A stretch of DNA of 64,000 nucleotides, from the NCBI GenBank assembly GCA_943736015.1, contig OX031060.1, forward strand, positions 26,117,231-26,181,230, read 5' to 3'. A program made the translations under genes and the position numbers. This stretch comes from Tridacna crocea (lineage: Eukaryota; Mollusca; Bivalvia; Cardiida; Cardiidae). Positions 6,115 through 28,084 of the stretch are shown piece after piece. The notes under the pieces were generated by a model that worked only from the letters and a program-made list of their open reading frames with translations, ran no database searches and was not told where the DNA came from. Position 1 is the stretch's first letter. Each line of letters begins with the position of its first letter.

Positions 6115-6433
6115 TCAAGAAATACTGAGTTCTACGGATTTAATCTGTTCTGCAAGTCTTTTATAATGTAAAGAATCAGCCGGCTGATTAATATGGTGTA
6201 GAATTTTAGACAACAGAGTGTATAACTCAAATTCCAGTGTCAATGGTTTCGATGGAGACTTCAGCTCTTCTAGTGCGGAGGGCAAATTCTCATTGCTTGT
6301 TGTTTGTACTTCTGAATCAAGTCTAGATCTCTTATTGGCAGGACTGGCAGGTTGAGACTGACCATGTGAACAAATTGTTTCTCCTTTAACTTCAAATAAC
6401 TTTCTCTTGAATGAAGTGATTGCATCAACAGCC
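6115..6433 (-). CDS. FANCG: FANCG terminal exon 12
   Basis: 319 nt, acceptor TTTGCAG, phase 2 in, ends at TGA (6117-6115). Encodes RAVDAITSFKRKLFE, completing the TPR begun in exon 11. A Ser/Pro-rich linker with ANKRSRL follows, then a helical C-terminus (FELYTLLSKILHHINQ ... LAEQIKSVELSIS). No obvious AATAAA close downstream on this strand. A further exon after an alternative splice cannot be excluded. Confidence 0.8.
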
Positions 6434-9400
6434 CTGCAAATTAAAGAAAAAGAAGAGTCTGCAACAGATTTCAAAGTATGCCTAGATATCACTGACTCAG
6501 ATTTGTCAAGCAAATGCTTTTAATTTGGACAAGCTTACAAATTTGCTTTATGCTAAAGTGTTAACTCTTTACTGAAGAATCCTGTGGTTTAACAATACAA
6601 GAAAAGAATTTGAAAACTTGTTGAAAAAATAGAAAACAGTCATAACCAGAGTTTTCTTGTTCAGCCTGAGTGTTTTCTGCCCTTTCAAAGAGAAATTCCA
6701 TAATTTACAAGTAATTTGTCATCTGCAATTGCATCCAATATTTGCGCAAGTCAAGCGATTTTTAATTAAGTTGTAAATTATAGTTTAGTCCAGATGCTTA
6801 TGAGTTAGCCTATTAACCCTTTCCCAAACAACAAATTTTGGACTCTTCCAAACCAAAGGAGTTTGCAAGCAACAATTTTAGATTTGGAGAAAATGGCAGA
6901 AAGTTCTCAAAAGGGGTAGAAAACACTTTGGGAAAAGGAGAAATTGCTTGTTATGTTCAATTTCTCCTTTTCCCAAAGTGTTTTCAAAAGACTTTTACTG
7001 CAGACAAGTAAAACCAGGGCTTGTTTGGGAAAGGGTTGAACTTTGGGTACTTTTGCTGACAGTGTAGATTAAGATCAGACTGCACAGGGCATTTAAGTCA
7101 TAAACTATAAGAAAAGAACATCATAACTGTGTAAAAAATACTTGACAGTAAGCTGCCCTTTTAGTATGCATTCTTTTGACTGCTAACAACTAGCCCAAGT
7201 TTGAAAGTTATTCTCAGTGGTGACGGAAATGCATTGAAATCCACACGCTTTTGTATAACACTGAGAAAAAAAACACCTAAGAGTTTGCTGGTTTGTATCC
7301 TCAGCGTAGCCAATTTATCTCCCTGGATTGATGATAATTATTGCCACAAGACTCTTTCCTCTCTCACAGCTGACCCCGACTTTGGCAATGGTTAAGTGTG
7401 GGACAGCAACCAGTGGCTCGGAAATAACACTGAGTGCAATACTGGTAACAGAAACTCTTACCAAAGCATGGATAGGTGCACTGACCCCCATGATATAGCT
7501 GAAAAAATGTTGAAAACGGCATTTTACACCATACAAACTAACAGATGCAGAAACGGATAATGGCAGGGCTATAACAATACCTCTGCTGTCTTTATACCAG
7601 CTTAAAAGATGGCTTTTACAGTGATTAACCCTTTCCCAAACAATCCCTTGTTTTTACGGGTCTAGAATAGTAGCCTTTTGAAAACATTGTGGGAAAAGGA
7701 GAAAATGCTGGTTAACAGCATTTTCTCCTTTTCCCACAATGTTTTCTACCCTATCATAGACAGAAATCATCTTTTTGGCAAGAGTTGAATTGTCGTCTGC
7801 AAATGCTTTCAGTTTGGTCTAGTCCAAAAATTTGTCGTTTGGGAAAGGGTTAACTCCCTACCAAACAATCCAACAATGGGTTTAGAAAATGTAATTTTGA
7901 AAAGATAAAATACATGTTCTCCTTTTCCAACAATGTTTTCTGTCTTAACACATAAAAAAAAGAGTTTAACAATTTGTGTTAAAAATATAATTAGTTGTTG
8001 TCTGGATATGCGGTCCATTTGGACCAATCCAAAACTCTGCTGTCTGGATTCAGATAACCTTTACCAAACAATCCCTGGTTTTTACAACCCTAAGATAGAA
8101 TCCTTTGGAAAACATTGTTGGAAAAGGAGAAAATGTTGGCATCCAGAATTTTCTTCTTTTCCAACAATGTTTTCTACCCGCTTGAAACAAATTTCAATTT
8201 TTAAGTTACATCTATTTTGTTGTCTGTAAGTGCTTTCATTTTGGACCAAACCAAAACTTTGCTGTTTGGTAAGCAGCTAAACATGTCCAAATCCTTTTTA
8301 CTTTTTCCCCAGTTTTAGTATATAACATTACAATCAAAAACTACAATTTGTAACTTGTAGCACACTACTTTTTCAGAAAAAAATGACTTACACCTTACCT
8401 TTGAGCACTAGCAATGGCTGAGTCATGCTGTCCAAGTTTGAAAAGAACTTCAGCCTTATATTTACATGCAATCACATCCTCAGAATAAGTGTTATCCTCA
8501 GCACTCCAGGAGTTATCTTCTTCGAAACTATCACTTTTTTCTCGTTTTCTTTTCCTTGAACAATTTGTATTTTCCAGTCTTTCTGTGCTGCTTTCCTTTA
8601 GACATGAAGCTTTTACAGAACTAGATGGGGTGTTTCCACTAAAGGTAAGACTTAAGTCTGAGAGTGATTCCCTCCTATGATAGCTTGATATTACCTTATT
8701 ACATAGAGTAAGACAGTCTCTTAATTGGTTTGCTTTCAGTAGAGCTAGAATTGCCTCATGATGGACTTGTACTAGAGATGGGATACCTGTAAAATCCTGT
8801 CAATGAAAACAAGAATATTGTAAATGAATGTATTCCCAAAACTTTTCTGGCTCCTTGTGTAAGAAAAAAATTATCATATTGCTGTATGTTCCTGCACCGG
8901 AAGATTTCTATCATCTTGCACCCATCTACAGTCTTGCATGGAATCAAATTTTTCCATGCAGCTGATGCCAAATCAAAGCCAGAGGAAAAGTACCACAACA
9001 TATGATTCAGTATTTGTTCATACATGTGATAATTGAAATATACCTTTGTATATACATGTAACCTGAAATACTGAGCCAAGATTACAATAAAACTTTGAAT
9101 CATTCAACCCTTTAGCCCTTTACCAAACAATCCCTGATTTTTACTACCCTGAGGTGGAGTCCTTTTGAAAACATTGTGGGAAAAGGAGAAAATGCTGGTT
9201 ACCAGCATTTTCTCATTTTCCCACAATGTTTTCTAGGCTGCTGGAAACAAATTTCAATTTTTGAGTAATGTTTATTTTGTCGTCTGCAAGTGCTTTCAAT
9301 TTGGACAAGTCTAAGATTTTATCGTTTGGTAAAGGGTTAAGTGTTGAACCTGTCTTTACTGGCTTTTGGGGATAGTGTAGATTTACAAAGAACATGCAGT

Positions 9401-12400
9401 GTGATCTTGGATCTACAATGTCCATCATCAAACTTGTAAAAAGCAGGAATTTGGCAAGTTTTCCGTTAACTCTTTACGAAACGACAAAATTCTAGACTGG
9501 TTCAAGTTGAAAGCAGTTGCAGACAACAAATAGAACTAACTCAAAAATTGAAATATGCTCTGGAGGGGAAGAAAACATTGTGGCAAAAGAGGAGAAACTG
9601 CTTGTTACCAGCATTTTCTCCTTTTTCCACAATTCTTTTCAAAAGGTTTCTCAGAGTCCTGAAAACCAAGCATTGTTTGGTCATGAGTGAAAGTAAAAAT
9701 GTCCTTTTAATCAATTCAGAGCTCTAATGATCAAGTATACACTAACAGAATAAGTTCTCATTTGTCATCACATCAGCAAATACTTTAGGTTTGGACATGT
9801 CTAAGATTTTGTTGTGTGACAAAAGTCACAATAAGTGTCAAGTTTTCAAGAGGTGATGATATCTATGAGTAAGTATCTGCAGAGGTTTACACTTGCAGTG
9901 TCCCAGAGGGTATCAAAATTTAAAGGGAATGGACTGAACTGGATCATTAAATGCTTAACTCATTACCACACAATCCTTACTTTTGACAACCTTGAGAAAG
10001 AAGCCTTTAGAAAGCACTGAGGGGAAAGGAGAAAATTTTGTCTTTCTCCAACAATGTTTTATACCCTCCCAAAATCAAAAATTGATTTTAGATTCACATT
10101 TATTTTGTCGTCTGCAAATGCTTTCAATTTGGACTACTCAAAAAATTTGTCGTTTGGTAAAAAGTTAATCTATTGTCATGTTATGCACCTTGTCTCCATC
10201 CATCTATCCGTCAGTCGGAAAGCAATTTTGCCAGCCTAATATCTTTTGATACCCTTCTCAGACTCTGAATGTATTCCACACATGTGAGCACCTAAATGAA
10301 ATGATGGGAAGGGTAGAGATTTCATTATGCCAGACTCAATTGTCAAGGTCACAGTGTGGTGTGAAAAGTCATGGTTTTGAGAACTGTAAGACATCATTCC
10401 TCCTTTTTTTAGAGCTCTTGTTGAACCAATGTTATTCTGTCCCAAGCTCCCCATAATATTATATCCATATAACAAAAATCTTGAATGAATAAAATATGTC
10501 ATAAAAATATCACTGACCTCTGACTCCCAGGAGTGTAAGTATATCAAGAGCTGTTTATACTTTTCTGCAGCAATGGTGTATCTTGAATAGAAAAACATTG
10601 ACAGAAGCTTTTACATGCATTGATTCTTTACAACACAATCCCAAGTTAAACAACCTTGAAGGAGAAGGCTTTTGAAAACATATTGAAAATTCTGGTATTA
10701 ACTAGCATTTTCACCTTTCCCCACGATGTTTTCTACCGTGTCAAAGAAATTTTGTTCACTTGTATGACTTTCAAATCTGTTCTCTGCAAATGCTTTCAAT
10801 TTGTCTGACAAATATTTAACCCTTTACCACATAATGCAGACTTTTAACAACCCAGAAGTAAAGGCCTTTTGAAAACATTGTGGGAAAAGGAGAAAATGCT
10901 GTAACCAGCATTTTCCCTTTTTCCAACAATGTTTTCTACCCTATCACAAAAAAATCTAATTTTGTTGAGCCACATTGAAATTGCCGGCTACAAATGCTTT
11001 CAATTTGGACAAATCTGAAATTTTCTTTTGTGGTAAAGGTTTAACTCTTTAGAAAATCTTGTACTAGTCCTTATTGAAAGTAAGTGCAGATGACAAATCA
11101 GATGTAGGTAAAAAGTTTCGGCTTATCCTTTACAGACAAACAAGAGTGGCAAATTGTTGCAAGATACACCCGTCTTACCTCAAGTTGTAAAGCTGGGGCA
11201 TGCACCGGACAAAATTCAAGTATGAAAAACAACAAAGGGCAATAACTCAAAAATTAATCGAGCAAGACTTATGATTCCTATGCACTGCACTCCCCCTTGA
11301 TGAGATCTATCCACCCATGAAATTTCATAACCCTAACTAGTATAGTTTTGGAGATATGCTCTGGACAAAATTCAAGTATGAAAAACGACAAAGGGCAATA
11401 ACTCAAAAATTAAGCAAGCAAGAGTTATGATTCCTGTGCACATCAAAATTGGATGGGTAGTTTCATAGAAGATGATGTTTGAATTAAAAGTTAACGCACG
11501 CACAGACGGACGGTTGCACTACGGACACCGGGCCATGACATAAGCCCGCTGGCCTTCGGCCAGTGGAGCTAAAAACATTGCTAGAAAAGGAAAAACACAG
11601 AAAAAATTGTAGGAAAAGAATAAAATGCTAGTTATCTGCAATTTTTCTTTTTCCACTTTGTTTGTAGAAGGCCCAAAATCCATTAGCCGAACAAGCCTGT
11701 GTTTTCAAGACCCTGAAGAAGAGGCGAATGGAAAGCACCATGAAAAAAAGAAGAAAATGCATTTACCCACAAAGTTTCCTAATCTGTCAAAGAACCTAAG
11801 AGCATTTGTACCACTTTCAAATTTGTCATATGAAGATATTTTCAAATCTGTCGTATCTACAACTTGCTGCTTGGGACAAGGTTAAAGGTGGGTATTTAGA
11901 ATTTTCACATCACACCAAATTAAAAAATATTTACATCATTGAAATTTATACGAAAAAAAACAATACAAATCATCAATAATTAAGAATCATAAAATTACAT
12001 TTTCTTTTGTAAGATAGGGTTTTGAAAATGTTTGAATCATCGGCCGGTGGACTATTGTTAGAATAGCTATTTTAATGTAACAAGTTGATAACACCTGAAC
12101 ATTGTATGAAATGGAAGAAACTCACGTTATGAGTGTTTTTTCGTTTTCAATCAGTGCCAACCGCCGAGTGTAGCAAATCTGGACTAGACTAGAATTTTTG
12201 ATGGTAGATGTCAGTAATATAAAATGTTTGAACTAAAGGCCGACAGCCTTTATTTTAATATTTTAGTATAATAATTTTCAATGTAATAATTTATTACATT
12301 TTGAACACTGCGGTAACCCTTTACCACATAATCCCAACTCTTAACGACCTTCCTTGAGGGAGAAGGCTCTGGACAGCATTGTGGGCAAAGGAGAAAACGC

Positions 12401-15400
12401 TGTAACCAGCGTTTTCTCCTTTTCTCACAATGTTTTGTCTCCATCCAAGGATTAACTTCATCATCTGAGTCATGCTAAAATTGTCATCTGCATGCGCTTT
12501 CAGTTTGAACATACTCGAAACGTTGTCGTTTGGTAAAGAGTTAACTCATTACCACACAATCCCTACTCTGAGACCCTGAGAAAGAAACCTCAAGAGGGCA
12601 TTTGGGGAAAAGGAGAAAATGCTGGTAACCTGCGTTCTCTCCTTTTCTTACATTGTTTTCTACCCTTCATAAAACAATTTTCCAATTTTCAGTTACTTAA
12701 TTTATCGTCTGCAAATGCTTTTGATTTGGACAAGCCTAGGGTGTTGTCGTTTGGTAATAAGTTAAATGGAGGAAATGTACGCTGATGGCATTTTCTCCGT
12801 TTCGAGCAATGTCGACTGCAGATGTTTTACTTCTGGGCAAGGCTAAAATCTGATAAAGTGCAAAGACGAAAACAGTTTAATAATTGTTAACTAAAGCATC
12901 TCCTATAGGTAATAGATTATATTTTGTGAGGGAATGCATGGTAAAATTGTTTATATATTATGGGCCGGTGGCCTATATATTTGAATAAAATATCTTGAAT
13001 CTTGAATCTTGAAAAAAGAAAAAATTTATGGTATTCCCTTAAAAGGCTACGTAGCCTCTTAAGCTATTTTTAGATTTCGCACCAAAAATCAATAAAGCAT
13101 TGTGGGAATGTCAAGTGACTGGCACATGACTAATAACGCTTAAATTCCATAACATAAGAAACATGTAATAATTATTTTCCATGTCTTCCTTAGACGGATG
13201 TTTGAAACTTTGTCTGCGTTTTCCTGTATTTAAATGAGAGAATTGATAATCTAAAAATAGAATGTGTCTCTTGTTGGTGTTAACCTGGTCCGTAATAAAT
13301 TTCTAATTTCTCATGTTATCGGATGGTTTTCAACTACTGGGGTTTTATGAACGCAAATTGAAAGGCTATGGGAGAATAAGGATGATTTTTTTTGCATTTT
13401 TGTAAAATTTTCATCCCAAAATCTGAAGGGCCACCTTTAACCATTTACCACACAATCCCTGGTTTTTACGACCCTGAGATAGAAGCCTTTTGGAAACACT
13501 GTGGGAAAAGGAGAAAATGCTGATAACCAGCATTTTCTCTTTTTCCCACAATGTTTTCTACCCTAGCAGAGAGCTGAAGTTCAATTGCACAGTTTTGAAT
13601 CTGTTGTCTGCAGATGTTTTTGAAATATTAAGAGTCCAAAATTCTATGTGTGGGAAGGGGTTAAAACACGGGGGACAGGGTTAAAACACTGGGATATCAC
13701 AAATAGAATACTTACCTCTGTAACTGTAGAGATCGGCTAGCAAACATATACAAAGCCTTTGTATAGCTTATATCAGACTCATACAGTGGCAGGATATTCA
13801 GCAGGTCTATGCCTTCATCTCCCTCTTTCCCTTCCGCAGCACTGTTTTGTTCTCTCATTTCCAGAGCCTGCAAAAATAAACAAATAGTAAATAGTGCCTA
13901 GCCTGCATTTCAAAAACATTCTGAAACATGAACTCTTTACCAAATGACAAAATTTTAGACTGGTCCAAATTGAAAAATTTCATACTGGTTCAAATTGAAA
14001 GCACTTTCAGATGACAAGTGAAACATAACCCAAATATCGAAATTTGTCTCCAGTAGGGTGCATAGAAAACTTTGTGGGAAAAGGAGAATATGCTAATTAC
14101 CAGCGTTTTCTCTTTTTCCCACAGTGTTTTCAAAAGCTTTCTATCTCAGGGTCATAAAAACCAGAGATTGTTTGGTAAAGGGTTAAATCACTCTTTCTTT
14201 GGCAATATGGCCTTTATCGAGACCAAAAAAATCGTAAACGGCGAAACAACATGTGTAATGGTGTGTGACATTTTCAGGAAGGAAAGGATATATTTGTTGC
14301 CTCTAATACATGTATCTTCCTATCTTTCCCTATGGTTGTTTCAACCTGTTGCCACAAAATTCTGGGTTTTAACTACCAAATAGAAAAAAAAAAATCTTTT
14401 AAAACATTGTCAACAAAGGAGCTCCTACAATGTTTCTACTCTTTTAACCCTTTACTCCATAGATACTCATTTTTACGCATTGCTTGTATCAGCCTTTGAA
14501 AAACATTGTGGCAAAAGGTGAAATTGCTCGTGACGAGCAATTTCACCTTTTGCCACAATGTTTTCTACACTATCAAAAGGTGTCATATACACATAAGAAA
14601 TGGCTTCATCCAATTTTATGGTTTGGTGATGAGTTAATTCCATAAGAATCTGCATTCCATAGAGGAAAAAATTTTAAAAAATATCGAAAACTATCCGCAT
14701 CATATTTTCAATCAAAGTACATTACCCATAACATACTCCACTACAATCTACTTACTGTCACTAGTAGGTTCAAGCACTCCAGTTCTTCACTAGTTTGAGC
14801 CAGTTTTCTGTACTGTAGGGACGCTTGATAAAGTGGCTTCAGAAATCTAAAATCTGCTGTCAAAGCTTCTTTGTGCATCTGAATAGATAACTGCATGGAT
14901 CCCTATAATAAATATGAGCCATGGTTTGTGAAAAGGGCTTAAGAAGCTTTCTGAAAACATTGTGGGAAAAGGAGAAAATGCTGGTAATCAGCATTTTCTC
15001 CTTTTCCAACAATGTTTTCTATCCTATGAGGGTAAAATCTCATCATTTGAGTCACATTTAAATTGCTGTCTGCAAATGCTTTCAATTTGGACAAGGTCAA
15101 AATTTTGTTGTCTGGTACAAAGTTAAGGTGATAATGAGCTGGTATCAAAGTCTTAAGCTCTTACTTTTTTTGTTTGTCTTATTTTGCAATTTTTCTAATC
15201 AGAGGAGTTTGAGAAAAGTACATGCAGTATAGGGATAAACTGCATACCATCTTTTCCAGACAAGTTCCAATTAATGTGAAGATTCTGGCCTTCAACCTCT
15301 GGGTGATAATCTCACTTGATCTAACAATCTGCATCAAAACAGCCACAGCTTCTGAGTATCTGTTCAGCTTGTACAGGCCATAACCTGTAGTAGAAAATTG

Positions 15401-18400
15401 AAAATTCTCAATATCACTCTTAACTCTTTATCAAACGACAAAACTTTAGACTAGACGAAATTGAAAGCACTTGCAGACGACAAAATTTGACTCAATAAAT
15501 GAAATTTGTTTTGGGAATGTTAGAAAACATTGTGGCAAAAGGAGAAAATGCTGGTTACCAGCATTTTCTCCTTTTCCCACAATGTTTTCAAAAGGCTTCT
15601 ATCTCAGGGTCATTAAAAGTGGGTATTGCGTGGTAAAAGGTTAAAGGCAGGGACACTGACGGGATTCATGTAACATTGTCTTTCATTGCCAAATTGGTAC
15701 GCTAAGACTCACGTAATTCTAATGGATGCAGGGAAGTAGCGTCTAACAGATGATCAATTATAGATAACCCGAGTCTTAGCCAAACCTGTGCATTTTTATG
15801 GCAATGAAACGCGACGTATGATACATCAATCCCCTTCAAGAGCCCTATCCTTAACCCTTTCCCAAACAATCCCTGGTTTTTACTGGTCTGGAATAGTAGC
15901 CTTTTGAAAACATTGTGGGAAAAGGAGAAAATGCTGGTAACCAGCATTTTCTCCTTTTTCCACAATGTTTTCTACCCATTCATAGACAGAAATCATCTTT
16001 TCAGCGAGAGTTGAATTGTCGTCTGCAAATGCTTTCAATTTGGTCTAGTCCAAAAGTTTATCGTTTGGGAAAGGGTTAAAGGTGGCCCTTCAGAATTTGG
16101 GACGAAAATTGTACACAAGTGCAAATCAATCATCCATATACTCCCAAAGCCTTTTAATTTTCATTCATAAAACCCCAGTAGTCGAACACCGTCCGACAAC
16201 ACGAGAAATTAGAGATTTACTACAGCCCAGGTCGACACCGACGGGAGACACGTTCTATTTTTAGTTGATCAGTTCGCTTATTTACATACAGGAATACACA
16301 AAGTTTCAAACATAGCGTCCGAAGAAGACATTATGGAAAATAATTATTACATGTTTGTTATGTAATGGAATTTAAGCGTTACTAGTCACGTGCCAGTCAC
16401 CTAGCATTCCCAAAATGCTTTATTAATTTTTGGCGCGAAATCTAAAAATACCTTAAGAGGCTACGTAGCCTTTTAAGGGAACACCCTCCATAAAATTTTT
16501 TTTTGTAATTCTATGAATCTTAATTATTGATGATTTGTATTATTTTTTCATATGAATTTCAGTGATATATATATTTTTTAATTTGGTGAGATGTAAAAAT
16601 TCTAAATACCCACCTTTAAGGGTCTCATTCAGTCTTTACAATCCCATGTTTAACCTCATGCCAGACGACAACATTTTAGCCTTGTCCATATTGAGAGCAT
16701 TTGCAGATCAAAATTTAAGTGGGGCTAAACTGGTGCAATTTTTCTTTGATAGGTTAGAAAACATTTGAGAAAAAGGAGAAAATGCTGGTCACCAGCATTT
16801 TCTCACAATGTTTTCAAAAGGCTTCATTCCCAGGTTCGTTGAAAGGTGGCATTGTATGATAAAGGGTTAAGCAACCTTGAAGAACAAGGATTTGAAAGAG
16901 ATTCTAGAAAAGTAGAAACCAGCTTTTCTACATTACCAACAATGTTTTTCTACATTTTCAGAGACGACTCCCCATCATTTGGGATTATTTCCTGTCTGCA
17001 AATAAAATAAAAATGGGCTGGTGTTGTTGTTTATGTGTTAAGAGTTCATATTAATATTATAAAAGTACTTTTTACAAGATAACAAGATTTTGTTGAAGTT
17101 GGGAGCATTTCAGGAGAAATTTAATAAACTTTACTACCCCCTAAAAGATAATTATCTCTATAACAGCAAGATTACCATAAATTTTGTTGTCTGCATGTGC
17201 TTTACATTAATCTATCCTAAAGAGTAAACTGTACCAGACAACCACCTTTAAACCCATATCCTGATGCAATGAAATATTCAGGCCAAGTTAACCCTTTCCC
17301 AAACAACAAAATTCTGGACAAGACCAAATTGAATGTGCTTGCAGACGAAAAATTAAATGTAAAACAAACTATGATTTTTGTTGATGAAATGGTAGAAAAC
17401 ATTGTGGGAAAAGGAGAAAATGCTGGTTACCAGCATTTTTTGCTTTTCCCACAATGTTTTCAAAAGCCATCTCCTTCGGGGTCGTTAAAAGTCGGGATTA
17501 TGTGGTAAAGGGTTAACAAAGATTTCGCTAGAACAAAGTAACTTTATTTTAGGCCAAAGATATCTGCTTTTCAGACAGTGTAGATACAAAATCAGGCTGC
17601 ACATTCTGTTGTCTGATCTTGACCTACACTGTCCGCAAGAATTATGGACGCTTCATAGTTCGTACTATGACAATTTCATACCAGTAACTTCAAACCATAA
17701 CTTTACTACTCCGTACCATAGTCATATAATTTCGTATCACGTTTTTGGGACCTATGAATAAGTTTTGACTGAAAAACCTCCGTTGGTATGAAAGTGGCAA
17801 ATCTATTGTACAAAATGGTAACGTTAATACAAAGTAATTGCATAACGTCCATCAAAGGTAAGTAAGTCGAGGTTTGTGGCCTAAGGGTTGAACTTGTTCA
17901 TGTTTATAGCATTTCCAGACAGCAAACTTCATATGACTCACATGCTGGGATCTGTCTATGAGAGATAACATGACATTGTGGGAATAGATAAAATGCTTAT
18001 TAGAACAATTTTCTCAAAATGCTTGTACTAAGCATTTTCTCACAATTTTTTCAAAAGCGTCTTTCCTCATGATTGTTTAGCATGGGATGATTCTGTAAAG
18101 GTTAAAAGAGTAGACCTCAGTTTCATATATGCATATAAATCATGCATAGTTTTCTTGAGACCCTGTTTCTTTGAACTTTGACCACCGAATTTGGTATATG
18201 TCCCCAAGAATTAAAAATACTGCCTTGTCCTTCATTTGAGGGCCATAAATCTTCCCCATATGAGAAAGCGATGGAAAAACTCTGATCATGTAATTATGAC
18301 TCACAAATAATACTCTATTATTCACGTTTTAAATAAATTTGACAGTGACAAATGGTTAGGAAAAATCGGCCAGCTCTTGCTTCAAAACCATGACTTGTAA

Positions 18401-21400
18401 CCCTTGTGAAACACAAACCTGATACTATTCTAGAAGCAAGTTTCAATTCCTCTGTCTTTCCTATCTGATCCAGACCCTTGATGCCTTCTTCCCACTGACC
18501 AGATGAACATTGGTAACAGCTTAACAGAAAAGAAGTCAAACTGGCATTCGACTCTTTGAAGAAATATTTATGGTCGAGACACAATACAAAACAGAGATTC
18601 TTTTTACTCTCAGCCTGAAATATGTATTCAAGAAAAAATAGCTAAATTTATCATCATTTAACCCTTTACCATACAACAATGACTTTTAACACCCATGAGG
18701 AAGAGGCCTTTTGAAAACATTGTGGGAAAAGGAGAAAATGCTGGTAACCAGCATTTTCTCCTTTTCCCATAATGTTTTTTACCCTATCAAAGCAAAATTG
18801 CAACATTTGAGGCACTTTGTAAATGTCCTCTGCAAATGCTTTCAATTTAGATAGGTCTAAGATTTTGCTTTGTGGTAATGGGTTAAGAAGTTAACCCTAC
18901 AACTAGCAATCCTGTGTTTTCAAGACCCTGTGGACAAAGGCTAACTCTTTACCAAATAACAAAATTTTAGAATGGTCCAAACTGAACGGATTTGCAGACA
19001 GCAAGGTAACAGTGACTGGAAATTTGATTTTCTAAGAAGGGAAGAAAACATGGTGGGAAAAGGAGAAAATACTGGTTACCAGCATTTTGTCCCTTTCCAA
19101 CAATGTTTTCTTTCTCAGGGTTGTCAAAAGGAGGGATCGTTTGGTAATGGGTTAAAAAAAAACATTATGAGAAAGGGACAAAATGCTGGTAAACAACGTT
19201 TTCTCAATTTCCCACAATGCTTTCGATCTATTCTGCCACAAAGCCCACCCTGTTTGGTACATTTAACTATGTCATCTGTAATCGCTTTCAGTTTAGACTA
19301 TACTTAATTTTCGTTACTTGGTTCACTTATAATTTGTCTCCCCATAAAATCATTATGTATGAACCTGGTGTTAAAAGTAATTAACCACTCAAAAAATACT
19401 TTCATTCCGTGTCACTTTCATATTGAGAAAAAAAAAAAAATCATTACTAACTACCTCTGTATGTAAAATCATTTATTTTTATAATAAATGAAAATTACGA
19501 AAAACTCTTACTCTCACAACCTTTTCGTCACTTTCAGTGATTATGCCATCCTCAATTTGTTTAAGACTATGAAGCAATGAGCATGCAAGAGTGAAGTTCC
19601 TCTCTGATGCTGCAAGAAGGGACACCATTCTAAAACAGTCAAACAGTGACTCTACCAACCCTTCTAAACCTATCAAAAACAAAATTAGTATTATTAAAAA
19701 AATTAAAATAAATTTTCAGTTCACTCTTTAATTACCATCACTACAAAAACCCTTTCAAAGACAACAAATCTTGGATTTTTTACCATTGATAGCAATAGCA
19801 GATGACATACGAAATTTGGCTTTTATAACAAGTTTTTGTCTACAAAACCATAGTAGAGGCATTTTCAAATAATAATTTTCCCACGATGCTTTCAAAAGCC
19901 ATCTTCCCAAGGATTTAAAAAAGAGTGATTGCCCCAAACAATGTCTATTGCTTTTGTTGACAGTGAAGATAAAGATTAGACTGCACAGAGTACAGTCTGA
20001 TCTTGGATCTATACTGTCTGCTATGTAAAGATATACATGCTAAGAATCAACTATAACATTTTCAACCTGAGCCTATTTTGTCTATCTGATACTGGTAACT
20101 TTTAGGTAACTTTAGCAGACTGAGGGTCAAAAGCAGAAGTTTTCCACTATATCAAATTTCTATAACCATCTCCATATCACAGTTAGTGTTTACTCCACTC
20201 CAGCAGACATTGCTGTAAATATTTTGGAAAAAGGAGCAACTGTAAAGAGAATGTGTTCTACACTGTACCTGCCAGTGACACCCAAAAACTCTAAATAAAA
20301 CAGTCTGAATTTTGAGTCAGAAAAATATATAGTAAAGATATTGCCATGAAAAGACTTATTGATCAGTGTACATGTGTCTCTGCATACCAGATAGTGTAGA
20401 TCCAAGATCAAGCATACGATGAGCAAACTGATCTTGATCTAAGCTGGCTGGAAAGGCAACCAAAGATGTGACAGGAAAACCTCTAACCAAACTTACCAGC
20501 AAAGCTAGCACCCAACTTTAATGACTCCAAACATAGGTTAACTAGGACATGGGTTGTTCTGTTAGAGTTGTGGTTCATCTCAAATAGGGCTGCCTTCTGT
20601 TTATTATACCCTGGTAGTCTACTGCAAACTTAAAAACAAATACTGACATATATACTGTGTTCTCCTTTCTCCGTTCACCTAAGAGTAAATAAGCTCACAA
20701 AATTCACATTTTCGGTCAAAGGATCATTTTTTTGTGTAATGATCAAATATAAAATCTGAATTAAACTTGTAACTGAAAAAAGGCACTACAACTTGCGTCA
20801 AAAGGTTTGATCTGAGGATTTTTTCAAACCTAACTCACCAACCTGGGTTGTATGGCCACTATCTCATTTTTCCATTCATTTCATTGAAAGTCAAGGCCGG
20901 TCGCTAAAGACTGATGAATATTCTACACTCTAGATCAGACAGACAAGCTTATTCATAGTAAAGGGTAAACACAACCCATATAGGCGTATTTACTGTTGAA
21001 AAACATTGAAAATTTGCTTTTTATTGTATCTAATGAAATATTTTCTTTCAAGCTATGAAAATTACTCTCTATTGTCGCATTTTTGCATCTTATTTGATAG
21101 AAAAATACTTTTGCTGTAGGATAAGATGTTATGCATAATATCTGACCGAGTAGAATAGAACCAGTGTGGAACAAAACGTCATGAGCGCTTTTTCCTTCTG
21201 CTTTAGTACATGAACGGAGAAGCGAGAATGAACGGAGAAATGAGAAAAGGCCATACATGATTTGAATCTCACTAATGCCAGTGTGTATTTTGGATAAAAG
21301 CTTTACCACACAATCTCACTTGGTTGGTTGTACTGGGGTTTAACGCCACTTTAACAGCTAAGGTCATATCATGGCAGTCGGTGACGCACAAGTGTTTCCT

Positions 21401-24400
21401 GGCTTTCTCATACTGGTACTAACACTACTTTCTTTCCAAAGCCACCGACTACTTTTCTCACATGCTTCAGCAGAGGTGAGAGGCGAAAATACACCGGAGA
21501 GAAAGTTCGCCTCAACCGGGTATCGAACTCACAACCACCAGGTCATGAGTCCGACACGCTCACCACTGAGCCACCCGGGCGGGCCACAATATCACTTTTA
21601 AGAAGTCCGAGAACCAAAGGTTAGGAGAAAATGCTGATAACCAACATTTTTTTCCTTTTTCCCCAGATGTTTGCTGCCACGTCAAAGACCTTCAGTTTAT
21701 TTGTACCACTTTGGAAATGTCCAATTTGGAAAAGTTTAAAAATCGTCATTTGGAAAAAGGTTAACCCTGAGTACAGTAATCATAAATGGAGTCTAAGATA
21801 ATTACGCTTCTTACCAAGATTAACTCTTTACCAAACGACAAAATTTTAGACTGATCCAAATCAAAAGCATTTGCAGATGACAAAATAAAAGTGACTGAAA
21901 ATTTGAAATTTGTTTTGGGAAGGGTAGAAAACAGTGTGGGAAAAGGAGAAAATGCTGGTTACCAGCATTTTCTCCTTTTTCCACAATGTTTTCTAAAGAC
22001 TGCTATGTCAGGGTCGTTAAAAGTAGATAGGTAATGGGTTAACAAAAGCTTTGCAAAGCAGCTCAAAATCTGGAATACCTGCAGATATTCATATCTTTAA
22101 GTCCAATGCACAACTACACATCATAAAGATTCATTGTGGTAAGTTTGAAATTATTCACACGGAAACTATAGGATGAGTTGCGCACACAAGAAATTGCTAA
22201 CAGACACATAGATGAGTTGACAGACGGGTGTACGGATGGACGACTGGGGCCATAACATAATAAGTAAATGTAATTTCTTCTTGCCTTGTTATTTTCACAA
22301 ACACTAACTTGTAAATCAAACATTTCTATACATAAAAGTTTAACTCTGTCATCCACAAAATTTTCTGATTACTAGTATTTTTCCATTTTCCGACAATGTT
22401 TTCGAAAGATATACTCTTCAGGGTCAACAAAACATTTGGTCGTGTAGAAAAGGGTTAATTATTCTCTTTGTGATTTTGTTTCCAAAGGTAATCACTTTAC
22501 CCTTTTTTACCATACAGTCCTCAGTTTACACCAACCTAGAGGAGACTTTTGAAAACAATGTGGTACTAGGAGAAAATGAAGGTGACCAGTATTTTCTCCT
22601 TTTCCCACACAGTTTTCTACCTTTCCATGAACATATTTCAGCATCTTAACTCATTACCAAACGACAATATTTCAGACTGGTTCAAATTGAAAGCAATTGC
22701 AGACGACAAAATAAAAGTGACTGAAAATTTGAGATTTGTTTTGTGAAGGGTGGAAAACATTGTGGGAAAAGGAGAAAATGCTAGTTACCAGCATTTTCTC
22801 CTTTTCCCACAATGTTTTCTAAAGGCTTTTTTCTCAGGGGCGTCAAAAGTATGGATTGTGTGGTAATGGGTTAATAACATTCAGTTTTTGTTTGCAAATG
22901 ATTTCAATTTGGGCAAATCTAAATTTTGCTCTTTGATAAAATGTTGAACAAGTGAAAGTCAAAGACAATACACTTACATTAAAAGCAAAGTCAGAAGAAG
23001 TCAAATGTTAAATTTTTCAATCCATGTTTATGTTTGTTTGACCCTTTCCCAAGCAATCCCTGTGTTTTTACGATGCTGGAAAGAAGCCTTTTGAAAACAC
23101 TGTAGGAAAAAAGGAAAATGCTGGTAACCAGCATTTTCTCCTTTTCCCACAATGTTTTCTACTCTTTCATAGATTAACCCATTACCACACAATCCCTACT
23201 TTTGACGCCCCTGAGAAAGAAGCCTTTTGAAAACACTGTAGGAAAAGGAGAAAATGCTGGTAACCAGCATTTTCTCCTTTTCCCACAGTGTTTTCTACCC
23301 TTCACAAAACAAATTTCAAATTTTCAGTCACTTTTATTTTGCCGTCTGCAAATGCTTTCAATTAGGATAAACCTAAAATTTTGTCGTGTGGTAATGAGTT
23401 AAAAACAATCATTTGCATTACATTTTAATTGTCATCTGCAAACGCTTTCAATTTTGTCTAGTCCAATATTTTGTCATTTGGGAAAGGGTTAAAAAGAATA
23501 AAACAATAGCACCTATCATAAAAAAAAATTGAAATTAATGCGATGAAGATGTTAGCCATATGGCTTGGTGGAAATATATATAAAAAAAAAAGAAACTCTT
23601 AAAAACTGATAAAAGAAAAAAATAAAGATCTTGCCTCACCTCTATACATGGTCCTGTTTATTAGCCTATGGACAGATACCTGATCTATAAAGTCTCTCTG
23701 TCTGTGTTTTACATAGATATACAGATAGTTCCATAAAGCTGCGAGTTCTACACTCAATACTGACTCCTTGGCAGGAATACCTGAAACATCAAATGCCAAA
23801 GTTGCAGAATTATCTATTATCACATAACCTCCCTAGTTTTCAGTGTGATATTCTCATTATAAATTTTCAAATCTTACACTTGCTTGAGAAAAGCATTGTG
23901 TTGCATCATATATTATGTCATTTCATACTTAAAGTTTTCTCTCTGAGAACTGAATCCATTTTTATTCATGAAAATTACCCAACTGTACATGTATACATGT
24001 TATGGTTTTGCAGATTATAACCTATGATGCACAAGATTTCATTGTGAAACAAAAATTTGACACTTTTTGAATTTGAGGTTAAACTTTACTCATCCAAAAA
24101 AAATATTAATAAGCTTGCCACAACTACAGACTACATCTATTTTTGGTGCAATGCAGCAATTACAAATTTCCCTACTTTGCAAATGAATTAGATGAAATTT
24201 CCCTACTTTGCAAATGAATTAGATGAGCAAATAGTTCCATATTGGGTCAAACTTCTGTAACCTTTCATGTCATTTCCCAAACATTGTTGACCCAGATTTA
24301 TCTGTCAAAGTAGACAGGTAACATTTTTATTGGACTTGTTTAATAAATTTGAATCTCGAATGCCAACCTATGCCCGTTCCTATATACAATTCGAAATCCA

Positions 24401-27400
24401 ACTTCTGTCAACCCCTATGATGTCTGATACAATTTCTTTAAAAATCTATCTTTTTTAATTGATCTGAAAAAAAGCAGATTCTCCAAAAGTTAAGATAAAA
24501 AAAAAACACACAAACAAAAATTGTAACAGTTTGTAGATCATGACTAGAATACCTAGAAAGTAGAAAATCTAGTCTGATCACAGATCGACATTCTCAGATA
24601 TTTCGAGCAATACTAGCATTCTGTGAGAGAAGGCCTTCGTTAACCTTGAACCCATTACCACAAAATCCCTACTTTTGGCGCTCCTGAGAAAGAAGCCTTT
24701 AGAAAACATTGTGGGAAAAGGAGAAAATGCTTCCCACAATGTTTTCTACCCTTCACAAAACAAATTTCAAATTCTCAGTCACTTTAATATTGTCGTCTCC
24801 AAATGCTTTCAATTTGGACCATTCTAAAATATTGTCATTTGGTAATGGACCTTTACCAAACAATCCTGAGTTTTAGCTACCCCGAGGGAGATGGCCTTGA
24901 AAACATTACGGAAAAAGGAATAAATGCTGGCTAGCAGCTTTTTCTTCTTTTCCAACAATGTTTTCTGCTTTTTCAAAGACAAATTGCTTAATTTGGGCCA
25001 AATTTAATTAGTTGTCTGCATTTTTATTTTGACAAATCTAAAATTTTATCAAATAGAAGAGAGTTATAACATGGTGTAGACTCACTTGCACACTTCAGCA
25101 GTATGTCTCTGAATCCCTGCAGGCAAAACTTTGTCTCTGAAGAATCACGTGTCTGTACCTGAAACAGTTTTCAGAACTCTTATAAGGTTTTACAGTTCAT
25201 TTTCTCCTTATCATCTCCTTTCTGAAATATGCAGCAGAAAAGGTCCCAAATACATCCTCTTGAAAGTTGGATTCAGAAATTTGAAAACAATGCAGAAAAA
25301 GCAAAAATTATTAATTTCCAAATTTGTTTTCTTTCCAAAAGTTGTCTGCAATGAACTGCAAAAAAGTGCGGGAAAGTATGTACAAAGCCACTAGCCTTGG
25401 TAATATAAGTGAAAATCTAAAAAGAAAAATGTTGGAAATGGTTTTAATGAGACAACAAAATTTTACCCCTGTCCAAACTGAAAGCAGTTGCAGACAACAA
25501 TTTCAAGGAGGCTAAAATAGTGCAATTTTTCTTTGTTTGGATAGGAAACATTGCAGGAAAAGGATCTTTTTCAAGGAGGCTAAAATAGTGCAATTTTTCT
25601 TTGTTTGGGTAGGAAACACTGCAGGAAAAGGATCTTTTTCAAGGAGGCTAAAATAGTGCAATTTTTCTTTATTTGGGTAGGAAACATTGCAGGAAAAGGA
25701 TGTGTTCAAAAGACGTCCTTTGCAGGGTTGTTAAAAAGCGGCATTGTGTGGTAAAGGGTTAAATCTACTAAACAACAACATCTTAGACATCCAAATTGAA
25801 AGTATCTGCAGATGACAAATTGAATGCAACTCAAATGATAATTTCCTTAATTGATAGGGTAGAAAACATTGTGAGAAAAGGAGAAAATGCTGTTAATCAG
25901 CATTTTCTCCTTTTTCCACAATGTTTTCAAAACCTTAATCATCAGAGTTCTGCCAAGTTGGGAGGAGGATTCTGAAACACTGCACCATTGAATTAAAAAA
26001 AATGTCCAATCATACTCTACACATAATTGGTGGGAGTTGGTCTGTATCAAAGTCATTTGATAATTTATCTTTAATGCACAATCATGTCTCATAACTTTGA
26101 AAGCATCCCTATTTTCTACAAGTTTATAGACATTTCCAACTTTCCATTCTTCAAAGAATACTTGATAGAAAGTTTTCAAACACAGGGTAACTGCTGCAAA
26201 TACTAGTGCATTTGTAATGCAAATCTCAGAACCCTATGCTGAATGGTATGTGGGAGACTCAGACAGTGGTATGGGGTAAAGCATAGGGTCCATAGTTTGA
26301 CTCCTGTCACCCATAGACTATATGGTATTATCAAGGGATTTAATTGTATGCAGCCTGTGACTTGCCCCCCAGTTACAAAAAAACAACATCATTTTTTCTA
26401 CGCTAACAGGTTTTCTCCTTATTCTTTGGACAACTGATAGCTACGGTAAATCATTTGTCTACAAGAGAAGAAAACTGTTTGTCAGTGACCAATGCAGTCT
26501 GGCTGCGAACGCGGTGAAAGTCCTTTGAACTTGTAAACCTGCTCATAAAGTCTTTGCCATTGACATGAGTTTGTACATACAATACTGCCGGTTGCGCGAT
26601 TATACTATATAGACTATGGGTGCCAGGAGTCAAACTAAGGACTTCTATGGGGTAGAGTGCCAGCCTCTCACAACCAACGTTCTTAATTCTGATTGCATCG
26701 ATCCCATTATGAACTGGGTCAATCCTTAGAACAACAATGTGGACTCAGGTTTCCTGGAAGTGTTCATAGGCAGAAATCAACCCTTTACCACACAATCACT
26801 TAAAGAAGAAGCCTTTTGAAAACATTGTGGGAAAAGGAGAAAATGCTGGTGACCACCATTTTCTCCTTTTCCCACAAAGTTTTCTACCCTATCGAAGAAA
26901 AATTGCGTCATTTTAGCCATTATAAAATTGTCGTCTGCAAATGCTTTCAGTTAGGATAGGTCTAAAACTTTGTTGTCTAGTAAAGAATTAATATATGAAG
27001 TATGAACTTGTTTCAGAATAGATTCTGTAGATAGGTCCCTTTACCCTACAATCCCAAGTTTTAATGACCATGGAAGCAGCTTTTAAAAATATTATGGGAA
27101 AAGAAGAAAATGCATTTTTTCTTTTTCCAACAATATTTTATATTTCATCACAGACAAGTCATACCGTCTAATCAATATTTAATTTGTCATCCGCAATTGA
27201 TCTTTCAATCTGGACTAAAGTAAAATTGAGTCATTGGGTGAAGATTTTAACAAATAACTGAATGACATGGAAAACAATCCTAGATTGTTTAACTCTTTAC
27301 CAAACAACAATATTTTATACTAGACCAAATCGAAACCATTTGCAGATGACAAAATAAAAGTGACTGAAAATTTAAAATTTGTTTTATGGAGAGTAGAAAA

Positions 27401-27667
27401 CATTGTGGGAAAAGTAGAAAATGCTGGTTACCAGCATTTTCTCCTTTTCCCACAATGTTTTCTAACGGCACTTTTCTCAGGATCGTCAAAAGTAGGGATT
27501 GTGTGGTAATGGGTTAAAAGTATACTCACCTGAATGTTTTCGCAAACAGTCAAATTATTTTGCCAAGACAGCTGTTCAATGACTCCATTCTTCGGCTTTT
27601 CTTGGTTTAGTTTAGCAATGATTGCCCCATACTTTCCAGCCACAAATAACTCATACATGTTCTCCAT
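6115..27667 (-). CDS. FANCG: FANCG homologue (Fanconi anaemia core complex TPR protein), whole gene span, 12 exons, 678 aa
   Basis: Twelve exons joined by GT-AG introns give one uninterrupted 678-codon frame from the ATG at 27667 to the TGA at 6115; all phases agree. FANCG is a TPR scaffold of the nuclear Fanconi core complex that acts with FANCA to support FANCD2/FANCI monoubiquitination at DNA crosslinks. I recognised it by collinear resemblance to vertebrate FANCG recalled from memory: exon 8 PLYQASLQYRKLAQTSEELE against human [20 protein letters not shown]; exon 10 AAEKYKQLLIYL against AAEHYLDLLALL; exon 11 HHEAILALLKANQLRDCLTL and KLGQHDSAIASAQR against the human [20 protein letters not shown] and QLGAQKVAISEF stretches; exon 3 IPAKESVLSVEL against LPAAVPVLPLEL. 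Human FANCG is 622 aa. This one has a longer basic, Ser-rich linker and seems shorter at the C-terminus. No other family gave a comparable order of matches. Introns carry many MITEs. Confidence 0.82.
6813..7038. mobile_element. TTAA MITE, type C (CCCTTTCCC ends)
   Basis: TTAACCCTTTCCCAAACAAC to GTTTGGGAAAGGGTTGAA. The hairpin belongs to the GAAATTGCT arm subfamily. Confidence 0.8.
7305..7545 (+). mobile_element. SINE body and tail, headless
   Basis: GGATTGATGATAATTATTGC ... CCAGTGGCTCGGAAATAACA ... AAACGGCATTTTACACC matches the bodies and tails at 30890-31040 and 31140-31290. Confidence 0.6.
7625..7852. mobile_element. TTAA MITE, type C
   Basis: Intact copy: TTAACCCTTTCCCAAAC ... GTTTGGGAAAGGGTTAA, perfect central hairpin around GCTGGTTAACAGC. 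Confidence 0.9.
7849..8280. mobile_element. Two abutting, partly degraded TTAA MITEs
   Basis: First about 7849-8062, second about 8058-8280 with CTTTACCAAACAATCCCTGG. Both lie in FANCG intron 11. Confidence 0.7.
8399..8796 (-). CDS. FANCG: FANCG exon 11
   Basis: 398 nt, acceptor TGACAG, donor GTAAGG, phase 0 in and phase 2 out. Two TPR segments, HHEAILALLKANQLRDCLTL and KYKAEVLFKLGQHDSAIAS, are separated by about 65 Ser/acidic residues containing CSRKRKREKSD, a classical basic NLS-like cluster. In human FANCG this linker is shorter. Confidence 0.88.
9113..9340. mobile_element. TTAA MITE, type A
   Basis: CCCTTTACCAAACAATCCCT ... CGTTTGGTAAAGGGTTAA with near-perfect hairpin. Confidence 0.85.
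9366..9425. repeat. Hairpin repeat of the GTGTAGATC type
   Basis: GATAGTGTAGATTTACAAAG with facing arm TGTGATCTTGGATCTACAA. Confidence 0.5.
9466..9690. mobile_element. TTAA MITE, degraded
   Basis: TTAACTCTTTACGAAACGAC start; right end eroded to TTTGGTCATGAGTGAA. Confidence 0.7.
9955..10168. mobile_element. TTAA MITE, type B
   Basis: TTAACTCATTACCACACAAT ... CGTTTGGTAAAAAGTTAA. Confidence 0.8.
10518..10581 (-). CDS. FANCG: FANCG exon 10
   Basis: 64 nt, acceptor TTCAAG, donor GTCAGT, phase 2 in and phase 0 out. Encodes RYTIAAEKYKQLLIYLHSWE, matching GDAAEHYLDLLALL of vertebrate FANCG. Confidence 0.82.
10618..11044. mobile_element. Degraded MITE followed by an intact type A copy
   Basis: About 10618-10815 is eroded. 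10816-11044 runs TTAACCCTTTACCACATAAT ... GTGGTAAAGGTTTAA. Confidence 0.75.
11143..11573. mobile_element. Short array-type element (AAGAGTGGCAAATTGTTGC family)
   Basis: Two units of about 160 bp containing GACAAAGGGCAATAACTCAA, then a palindromic end AAGCCCGCTGGCCTTCGGCC. The same family is at 56170-57120. Confidence 0.6.
12313..12543. mobile_element. TTAA MITE, type A
   Basis: TAACCCTTTACCACATAATC ... CGTTTGGTAAAGAGTTAA; shares TTAA 12540-12543 with the next copy. Confidence 0.85.
12540..12764. mobile_element. TTAA MITE, type B, abutting
   Basis: TTAACTCATTACCACACAAT ... CGTTTGGTAATAAGTTAA. Confidence 0.85.
13437..13664. mobile_element. TTAA MITE, type A, sharing TTAA with the 545-bp element
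   Basis: TTAACCATTTACCACACAAT ... GTGGGAAGGGGTTAA. Ends 52 bp from FANCG exon 9. Confidence 0.8.
13716..13867 (-). CDS. FANCG: FANCG exon 9
   Basis: 152 nt, acceptor TTTGCAG, donor GTAAGT, phase 0 in and phase 2 out. Encodes an acidic linker (AAEGKEGDEG) then YTKALYMFASRSLQLQ, comparable to the TKHILASRCLQTG stretch before the next TPR. Confidence 0.85.
13929..14186. mobile_element. TTAA MITE with internal duplication
   Basis: The segment TTTTAGACTGGTCCAAATTG is partly duplicated as TTCATACTGGTTCAAATTG; right end GTTTGGTAAAGGGTTAA. Confidence 0.8.
14444..14636. mobile_element. TTAA MITE, type D
   Basis: TTAACCCTTTACTCCATAGA with hairpin arms around GCTCGTGACGAGC. Related copy at 42113-42330. 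Confidence 0.8.
14756..14902 (-). CDS. FANCG: FANCG exon 8
   Basis: 147 nt, acceptor TTATAG, donor GTAAGT, phase 0 both sides. Encodes MQLSIQMHKEALTADFRFLK then PLYQASLQYRKLAQTSEELE, then CLNLLV. This is the strongest single match to vertebrate FANCG ([20 protein letters not shown] then ESLELLVEAL). Confidence 0.92.
14938..15125. mobile_element. TTAA MITE, left-truncated
   Basis: Begins within the left arm; right end GTTGTCTGGTACAAAGTTAA. Confidence 0.75.
15248..15384 (-). CDS. FANCG: FANCG exon 7
   Basis: 137 nt, acceptor CTACAG, donor GTATGC, phase 1 in and phase 0 out. Encodes GYGLYKLNRYSEAVAVLMQI ... IFTLIGTCLEKM. This is a textbook TPR (G/Y/L spacing, SEAV), aligned to VYTALGSCHRKMG of vertebrate FANCG. 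Confidence 0.88.
15420..15644. mobile_element. TTAA MITE, type A
   Basis: TTAACTCTTTATCAAACGAC ... GTGGTAAAAGGTTAA; perfect hairpin. Confidence 0.85.
15851..16079. mobile_element. TTAA MITE, type C
   Basis: TTAACCCTTTCCCAAACAAT ... GTTTGGGAAAGGGTTAA; shares TTAA 16076-16079 with the 545-bp element. Confidence 0.9.
16076..16619. mobile_element. TTAA-target element of about 545 bp, copy 2, uninterrupted
   Basis: TTAAAGGTGGCCCTTCAGAA ... ATACCCACCTTTAA. Defines the element's length. Inner palindrome AGGCTACGTAGCCT. Confidence 0.85.
16650..16870. mobile_element. TTAA MITE, type A variant
   Basis: TTAACCTCATGCCAGACGAC ... TGATAAAGGGTTAA; the right hairpin arm is shortened. Confidence 0.75.
17288..17516. 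mobile_element. TTAA MITE, mixed type
   Basis: Left end CCCTTTCCC, right end GTGGTAAAGGGTTAA; central hairpin with one mismatched arm (TTTTTTGCTTTTCCC). Confidence 0.85.
17570..17633. repeat. Hairpin repeat of the GACAGTGTAGAT type
   Basis: GACAGTGTAGATACAAAATC facing TCTGATCTTGACCTACACTG. Confidence 0.6.
17640..18318. other. FANCG intron 6 sequence, little structure
   Basis: AT-rich. Only an eroded MITE-like arm (17990-18100) is visible; no coding signal found. Confidence 0.5.
18419..18614 (-). CDS. FANCG: FANCG exon 6
   Basis: 196 nt, acceptor TTTCAG, donor GTTTGT, phase 0 in and phase 1 out. Encodes AESKKNLCFVLCLDHKYFF ... SSGQWEEGIKGLDQIG, a TPR-like helix pair. Confidence 0.82.
18658..18886. 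mobile_element. TTAA MITE, type A/B
   Basis: TTAACCCTTTACCATACAAC ... GTGGTAATGGGTTAA. Lies 44 bp from FANCG exon 6, just upstream of its acceptor. Confidence 0.85.
18940..19155. mobile_element. TTAA MITE, degraded
   Basis: CTAACTCTTTACCAAATAAC ... CGTTTGGTAATGGGTTAA. Confidence 0.75.
19512..19669 (-). CDS. FANCG: FANCG exon 5
   Basis: 158 nt, acceptor TTGATAG, donor GTAAGA, enters phase 1 and leaves phase 0. Encodes LEGLVESLFDCFRMVSLLAA ... FTLACSLLHSLKQIEDG, parallel to the LRELWDSVL ... LALLLETL block of vertebrate FANCG. Confidence 0.85.
19960..20024. repeat. Hairpin repeat of the GACAGTGAAGAT type
   Basis: GACAGTGAAGATAAAGATTA facing CAGTCTGATCTTGGATCTAT and ACTGTC. Confidence 0.6.
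20388..20451. repeat. Hairpin repeat of the ATAGTGTAGATCC type
   Basis: ATAGTGTAGATCCAAGATCA facing CTGATCTTGATCTAAGCTGG. Confidence 0.5.
20497..20610 (-). CDS. FANCG: FANCG exon 4
   Basis: 114 nt. The acceptor is the second of two nearby CAGs (ACTACCAG), because the upstream one leads to an in-frame stop. Donor GTAAGT; phase 1 in and out. Encodes GYNKQKAALFEMNHN ... ESLKLGASFA, a helical segment. Confidence 0.78.
20640..21300. other. FANCG intron 3, no clear feature
   Basis: AT-rich with no repeat family that I can match; minus-strand open frames look random. Confidence 0.4.
21309..21596 (-). mobile_element. tRNA-derived SINE, full length
   Basis: On the minus strand it begins GCCCGCCCGGGTGGCTCAGT (A box TGGCTCAGTGGTGAGCG), has a B box GAGTTCGATACC, and ends AAAGTGGCGTTAAACCCCAG with a CCAACCAA-type tail. 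Pol III promoter boxes make this a SINE, not a functional tRNA. Confidence 0.85.
21820..22042. mobile_element. TTAA MITE
   Basis: TTAACTCTTTACCAAACGAC ... AGGTAATGGGTTAA. Confidence 0.85.
22354..22645. mobile_element. Two truncated TTAA MITEs
   Basis: A right half at 22354-22458 and a left-plus-centre part at about 22497-22645. Confidence 0.6.
22646..22874. mobile_element. TTAA MITE, type B, intact
   Basis: TTAACTCATTACCAAACGAC ... GTGTGGTAATGGGTTAA. Confidence 0.9.
23039..23493. mobile_element. Outer type C MITE split by an inner type B MITE
   Basis: The outer copy starts GACCCTTTCCCAAGCAATCC and resumes after 23402 as AAACAATCATTTGCATTACA, ending CATTTGGGAAAGGGTTAA. Confidence 0.85.
23174..23402. 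mobile_element. Inner type B MITE nested in the outer copy
   Basis: TTAACCCATTACCACACAAT ... GTGTGGTAATGAGTTAA, inserted after CTCTTTCATAGA of the outer copy and leaving TTAA on each side. Confidence 0.88.
23640..23780 (-). CDS. FANCG: FANCG exon 3
   Basis: 141 nt. TTTCAG acceptor, donor GTGAGG, phase 1 in and out. Encodes IPAKESVLSVELAALWNYLY and a helical continuation to RTMYR, matching the LPAAVPVLPLEL region of vertebrate FANCG. Confidence 0.85.
24164..24225. repeat. 31-bp tandem duplication
   Basis: The unit starting AAATTTCCCTACTTTGCAAA occurs twice, identical by eye. Confidence 0.85.
24651..25066. mobile_element. Two abutting TTAA MITEs
   Basis: Type B about 24651-24848 (hairpin shortened) and a degraded type A 24849-25066, just downstream of FANCG exon 2. 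Confidence 0.7.
25086..25158 (-). CDS. FANCG: FANCG exon 2
   Basis: 73 nt after a TTTCAG acceptor, VQTRDSSETKFCLQGFRDIL..., donor GTGAGT, leaves phase 1. With exon 3 it aligns to the vertebrate LxGLRGLLHSLQGLP segment. Confidence 0.8.
25501..25704. repeat. Three tandem 68-bp units inside a MITE
   Basis: TCAAGGAGGCTAAAATAGTG recurs at 25503, 25571 and 25639, each followed by CAATTTTTCTTT and AGGAAACA(T/C)TGCAGGAAAA. Confidence 0.9.
25757..25950. mobile_element. TTAA MITE, truncated right end
   Basis: TTAAATCTACTAAACAACAA, then a hairpin around GCTGTTAATCAGC. Confidence 0.65.
26240..26640. repeat. Inverted pair of SINE-like heads
   Basis: CATAGTTTGACTCCTGTCAC on the plus strand and TTAGTTTGACTCCTGGCACC on the minus strand (26639-26614) face each other, each followed by CCATAG(A/T)CTATATGGTA-like sequence. 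Confidence 0.5.
26778..26991. mobile_element. TTAA MITE, type A
   Basis: CAACCCTTTACCACACAATC ... TCTAGTAAAGAATTAA. Confidence 0.75.
27290..27516. mobile_element. TTAA MITE, type A/B, 14 bp from FANCG exon 1 donor
   Basis: TTAACTCTTTACCAAACAAC ... GTGTGGTAATGGGTTAA. The hairpin lies just inside FANCG intron 1. Confidence 0.88.
27530..27667 (-). CDS. FANCG: FANCG exon 1
   Basis: 138 nt, 46 codons beginning MENMYELFVAGKYG and ending ENIQ; donor GTGAGT; ends in phase 0. Translation stays open and joins exon 2. The start is the first ATG of this frame in the exon. Any upstream untranslated exon is not identified. Confidence 0.8.
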
Positions 27668-27829
27668 TACTTCTTCTTTTATTTTTTGACTATTTCATTC
27701 ATATAGGGCTTCCTCAGAGGCTCTATAGGCATGCTAAGAAATGTGTTCTTTCAGCCAAACAAAATCCTAAATTTAACAACCTGAGTGAAAAAAAGGATAT
27801 TGGAACATTGCAGTCTAGTTTAACCCTTT

Positions 27830-28044: not shown

Positions 28045-28084
28045 CATATTTATTTTACATCAATCGAGAGACAAGTTCAAACAA

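Follow-up and report, generated by a model that had tools for sequence, protein, structure and literature searches.

Human FANCG (XRCC9; PDB 7kzp chain G) is the closest described counterpart of the gene reported here. It is a TPR scaffold of the machinery that repairs DNA crosslinks, described mostly from vertebrates; it pairs with FANCA, and its residues 400-475 are needed for FANCA binding. FANCG is characterized by a physical complex with FANCA and FAAP20 and by its requirement for FANCD2 monoubiquitination. Excerpts from published work assign the human protein seven TPR motifs (PMC8877758) and a C-terminal tail, residues 585-622, that augments FANCA binding (PMC7102982). Published views on the time of origin of the Fanconi core complex conflict. 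In the excerpted parts of these papers, lower eukaryotes tend to be without core-complex genes (PMC4657327), most of the core complex is placed in the ancestral metazoan (PMC2730050), sponges are credited with a relatively complete pathway while the core-complex ensemble is placed in the vertebrate ancestor (PMC11061109), the Fanconi_A domain of FANCA is described as a vertebrate acquisition (PMC6792448), and more sensitive searches detected FANCC in plants and cnidarians (PMC10085685). A limited literature search on invertebrate FANCG, covering excerpts of the sources, returned no report of a molluscan FANCG. Several invertebrates have entries annotated as "Fanconi anemia group G protein" in public databases.

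We analyzed a window of 64,000 bases of genomic DNA, and on its minus strand we found a gene of 12 exons, running from position 27667 to 6115, that is very probably an invertebrate FANCG orthologue, the animal being probably a bivalve or other mollusc. The known family thereby gains a useful additional member. The predicted protein is similar in length to human FANCG (684 vs 622 residues). Exon 1 (27530-27667) starts with ATG and holds 46 codons; it is followed by exons 2 (25086-25158, 73 nt), 3 (23640-23780, 141 nt), 4 (20497-20628, 132 nt), 5 (19512-19669, 158 nt), 6 (18419-18614, 196 nt), 7 (15248-15384, 137 nt), 8 (14756-14902, 147 nt), 9 (13716-13867, 152 nt), 10 (10518-10581, 64 nt), 11 (8399-8796, 398 nt) and 12 (6115-6433, 319 nt including the stop), all on the minus strand. 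The entering phases of exons 1-12 are 0/0/1/1/1/0/1/0/0/2/0/2 and fit end to end, with exons 1, 5 and 7 ending in phase 0, exons 2, 3 and 6 in phase 1, and exon 9 in phase 2.

All 11 introns have GT...AG ends, and the joined exons give 684 codons closed by a TGA (6117-6115), with a second stop, TAG, directly after it. The 2,052 coding bases contain neither stops nor frameshifts, and in each of the 12 exons, exon 12 included, the frame used is the sole frame free of internal stops. GC content is 0.399 in exons vs 0.351 in introns. For exon 4 (start 20628) the acceptor ttttaag was taken over the stronger-looking tttgcag seven bases further on, because only ttttaag keeps the frame open. The twelve phase-consistent exons of the original prediction thus stand, whereas its length of 678 residues has to be corrected to 684, as a few boundary choices differ.

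The joined protein was compared by phmmer with 177,635 distinct PDB sequences, and human FANCG was the single match at E ≤ 1 (E 4.9e-15; window residues 305-484, chain residues 258-442). The PDB chain carries 19 extra N-terminal residues, and its residues 258-442 correspond to human 239-423. The alignment is colinear and spans four exon joins (7/8, 8/9, 9/10 and 10/11), and it therefore tests the gene model as well as the identity. When human FANCG was used in a reciprocal phmmer search, the real protein reached E 6.5e-15; none of 200 shuffled sequences and one reversed sequence did better than E = 160. Identity over the best segment (window 302-483, human 236-422) is 28%. A weaker N-terminal match, which includes exon 2, was seen by blastp (window 41-118, human 29-103; E 0.001 in a two-sequence comparison); the corresponding local alignment (window 41-115, human 29-104) was reached by none of 1000 shuffles, the best of which came within 2 points.

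Similarity to FANCG can also be seen exon by exon. In a tblastn search of human FANCG against the raw window, which requires no gene model, the top three matches were exons 11, 8 and 3, with E values of 0.005, 0.025 and 1.9, respectively. In single-exon local alignments, none of 500 shuffles equalled exon 8 or exon 11, and 4, 5 and 6 of 500 did so for exons 3, 4 and 7, respectively; the exon 4 match is out of register. Exons 1, 2, 5, 6, 9, 10 and 12 were unconvincing alone, with scores reached by 94, 39, 78, 220, 113, 32 and 49 of 500 shuffles. The best single-exon match was in register for five of the 12 exons (3, 7, 8, 9 and 11) and out of register for the other seven, exon 5 among them. The strong match begins at the end of exon 7, takes in exons 8 to 10, and ends within exon 11; the contribution of exon 10 is borne by the multi-exon alignment only. 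Exons 3, 7, 8, 10 and 11 had been named beforehand as the strongest, which proved mostly right: exons 8 and 11 lead, exons 3 and 7 also stand out, but exon 10 does not when taken alone.

Outside these regions the similarity fades. At E ≤ 10, window residues 1-301 alone matched no PDB sequence; residues 543-684, likewise searched alone, matched only Mediator subunit 26 (E 0.5-0.6, taken as chance) and not FANCG. Beyond residue 484, local alignment to human 423-622 gave a best score below chance, which 767 of 1000 shuffles reached. The claim that the segments match vertebrate FANCG in order is therefore upheld for residues 305-484 and for the weak N-terminal stretch, where significant colinear similarity exceeds that to other TPR families, but by sequence it does not extend to the C-terminal third.

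The positions of the introns offer a further comparison with the human gene. Six of the 13 human FANCG introns are documented in excerpts of published work, after c.84, c.307, c.510, c.1076, c.1433 and c.1480 (PMC8877758, PMC5511800, PMC3388349). Native human numbering agrees with residues named in papers at all 12 positions compared, e.g., Gln86, Gln356, Ser387 and Lys491. We take the other seven human introns to lie at c.175, 646, 777, 924, 1143, 1636 and 1760. A literature search for these seven positions documented none of them in the excerpts it covered, which included PMC9739414, PMC7268325 and PMC10403261. The c.925-2 variant in an excerpt of PMC9739414 was considered as FANCG intron evidence and rejected, as the gene concerned is MUTYH.

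We placed the introns on an intron-blind global alignment of the window protein with human FANCG. In the first alignment, window introns 3, 5 and 9 (the donors of exons 3, 5 and 9) fall exactly, and in the same phase, on human introns 3 (c.307), 4 (c.510) and 8 (c.1076), which makes three of 11 window introns against the six documented positions. In both genes the last of these lies inside an Arg codon. Three more, window introns 2, 7 and 8, coincide exactly with the presumed positions c.175, c.777 and c.924, bringing the total to six of 11. Window exons 8 and 9 (147 and 152 nt) are equal in length to human exons 7 and 8, by human boundaries that are partly presumed. Over 20 scoring settings, exact matches numbered one to three for the documented positions and four to seven for all 13; the documented count was one in eight of the 20 settings and is weak by itself. 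When 11 introns were placed at random 200,000 times and mapped through one alignment, at most two documented positions and three of all positions were met, and a second null that kept the phases never reached three documented or six of all positions.

Several of the remaining introns come close to human positions. Window intron 10 lies one codon from the presumed c.1143, and introns 1 and 6 share the phase of their expected partners, from which they are placed six and seven codons away. The global alignment misplaces window intron 11; on the best ungapped C-terminal 25-mer diagonal (score 23, runner-up 22) the exon 11 donor meets human intron 10, c.1433, in codon and phase (R579/R478). In the intron-blind alignment, window intron 4 (the exon 4 donor) has no human counterpart, which gives the window gene one extra intron in the part corresponding to human exon 4; no window intron corresponds to human introns 11-13. 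The window gene thus has an exon-intron structure in common with human FANCG, as judged against 13 human positions of which seven are presumed. Orthologues would be expected to share introns in this way, unlike unrelated TPR genes, and the common splice positions suggest an old gene. Together with the sole PDB match and its colinearity over several exons, they bear out the FANCG-like identity that was originally proposed.

After human intron 10, the window gene consists of a single exon with no recognizable similarity to the human protein. Exon 12 did not match human FANCG 478-622 significantly (149 of 200 shuffles reached its score), and a scan of exon 12, intron 11 and the 3 kb downstream for a missing counterpart of this human segment gave nothing above the control. 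The best score within intron 11 was reached by 22 of 200 shuffles. A downstream stretch at 5341-5249 (6 of 200 shuffles) was tried as a missing exon and set aside, as it lies in a tandem array and an upstream control stretch gave a higher score (7 of 200). The human 585-622 tail, the C-terminal 37 residues, had no recognizable match in exon 12, in intron 11 or downstream. The tail counts as an accessory feature and may have diverged too far to be recognized.

Compared with human FANCG, the window protein also carries an insert of approximately 65 residues (about residues 487-551), encoded within exon 11 at 8482-8676 on the minus strand. The insert is acidic and serine-rich, includes the basic run RKRKREK (8536-8556), and is followed by TPR sequence running into exon 12. 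An alignment-free fold of exon 11 (mean pLDDT 53) gave two helices, an unstructured stretch and a helix; within the insert this low-confidence single-sequence fold has no helix of at least four residues. The insert is thus probably disordered, as far as this model can be followed. RKRKREK and a second basic run, KRSR, in exon 12 (6322-6333) resemble nuclear signals, and on a motif reading may be such signals.

Two other readings of the protein-coding potential concern what the gene is and whether it works. Another TPR scaffold, APC3/CDC27-like, TOM70-like or similar, could merely resemble FANCG in its repeats. APC3/CDC27 and TOM70 have TPR-like sequence in common with the window protein, human FANCG itself weakly matches TOM70 (E 0.009), and the seven Pfam models that matched the window protein at E ≤ 1 comprised five generic TPR models, ANAPC3 and Gag_p24_C. 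TPR_1 matched residues 556-581 with 27.8 bits, exactly at the Pfam cut-off, and the other TPR models were below theirs, as were Gag_p24_C and the partial ANAPC3 match (residues 241-296, E 1e-4, 23.0 bits vs a cut-off of 27.2). Pfam thus placed no rival TPR family above its cut-off. Although the PDB contains numerous TPR proteins, FANCG alone was matched at E ≤ 1, with neither APC3/CDC27 nor TOM70 giving a match to the window protein, and introns of the window gene fall on human FANCG intron positions, which makes a different TPR family very improbable. We give even slightly less credence to a FANCG copy that has decayed to a pseudogene or is not expressed: the introns are crowded with palindromic repeats, but the 2,052 coding bases are intact and every intron keeps its GT-AG ends.

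More serious, though still unlikely in our judgement, is a gene that is FANCG but whose ends are mis-modelled, with exon 12 foreign or C-terminal exons missing and the N-terminal exons partly misjoined. This reading is compatible with orthology. It would account for the C-terminal third without significant similarity, for the use in exon 4 of the weaker-looking of two acceptors to hold the frame, and for the 105 residues that follow the codon of the matched intron (c.1433) vs 144 in human. Against it, all phases fit, exon 12 is open in the used frame only, the R579/R478 intron lies on the best 25-mer diagonal, narrow as its lead over the runner-up is, and the scans of intron 11 and the downstream 3 kb gave nothing above a control stretch. 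We retain a FANCG orthologue as the most likely reading.

The gene lies head-to-head with a plus-strand WD40 gene of seven exons (29817-39310, 328 residues), which we take to be STRAP-like; their start codons are separated by 2.1 kb. Ten single ORFs from elsewhere in the window, drawn from partly overlapping lists of 13, 46 and 25 rows, gave no Pfam match at E ≤ 0.01 (0 of 10), and this ORF-wise screen is insensitive, since one of these ORFs includes a WD40 gene exon. In its first intron, the WD40 gene contains two distant, seemingly inverted blocks (30355-30490 and 32150-32285) of a short repeated phrase, GATACGGTACCGTA, which occurs at 30358, 30402, 30437 and 32178; the blocks are perhaps the ends of one inserted element.

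An abundant palindromic, MITE-like element occurs throughout the window, with many copies in the introns of both the FANCG and WD40 genes. A blastn census, which superseded a palindrome pattern count (23 arms, 4 full palindromes), resolved 153 pieces into 63 loci, e.g., 2041-2107, 21925-21995, 22753-22819 and 27394-27464, that occupy 13,772 of the 64,000 bases. In the stretch 20000-30000, the element has near-perfect arms of approximately 33 nt that meet at one base, with ends of the type AACCCTTTACCA. Tandem arrays are found at 4839-5838, 39749-40913, 42398-43576, 50973-51995, 54131-55559, 56221-56876, 58609-59783, 60259-60793 and 63121-63992, mostly with units of 145, 157 or 166-167 bases. 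They resemble the tandem cores of bivalve non-autonomous elements.

As an orthologue, the window FANCG would be expected to fold as a TPR alpha-solenoid whose repeats bind FANCA. The start of the FANCA-binding region (human 400-475) lies in one of the best conserved stretches (human 391-422, window 452-483; 0 of 500 shuffles), and the rest is interrupted by the insert, after which a TPR comes. The protein would help to bring FANCA, and with FANCA the core complex, into the nucleus and to retain it there, and in this way would support the monoubiquitination of FANCD2-FANCI by FANCL at DNA crosslinks. The basic runs of the insert and the last exon may serve as its own nuclear signal.

The original suggestion that FANCG predates vertebrates depends on the molluscan assignment and on an identity that is low even in the best segment. 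On a scenario that we regard as speculative and rather doubtful, the ancestor shared by molluscs and vertebrates would already have had a FANCG gene divided into exons largely as today, and the FANCA-FANCG arm would be bilaterian or older and lost in flies and worms, not a vertebrate addition. The protein described here would then carry a nuclear-targeting insert of its own and have lost the C-terminal FANCA-clamping tail, and would import FANCA differently from its vertebrate counterpart. If the taxon is right, the finding of a FANCG with common introns in a protostome favours an early origin and later loss for the FANCG subunit. A FANCG orthologue also predicts that the same genome encodes a FANCA able to bind it.
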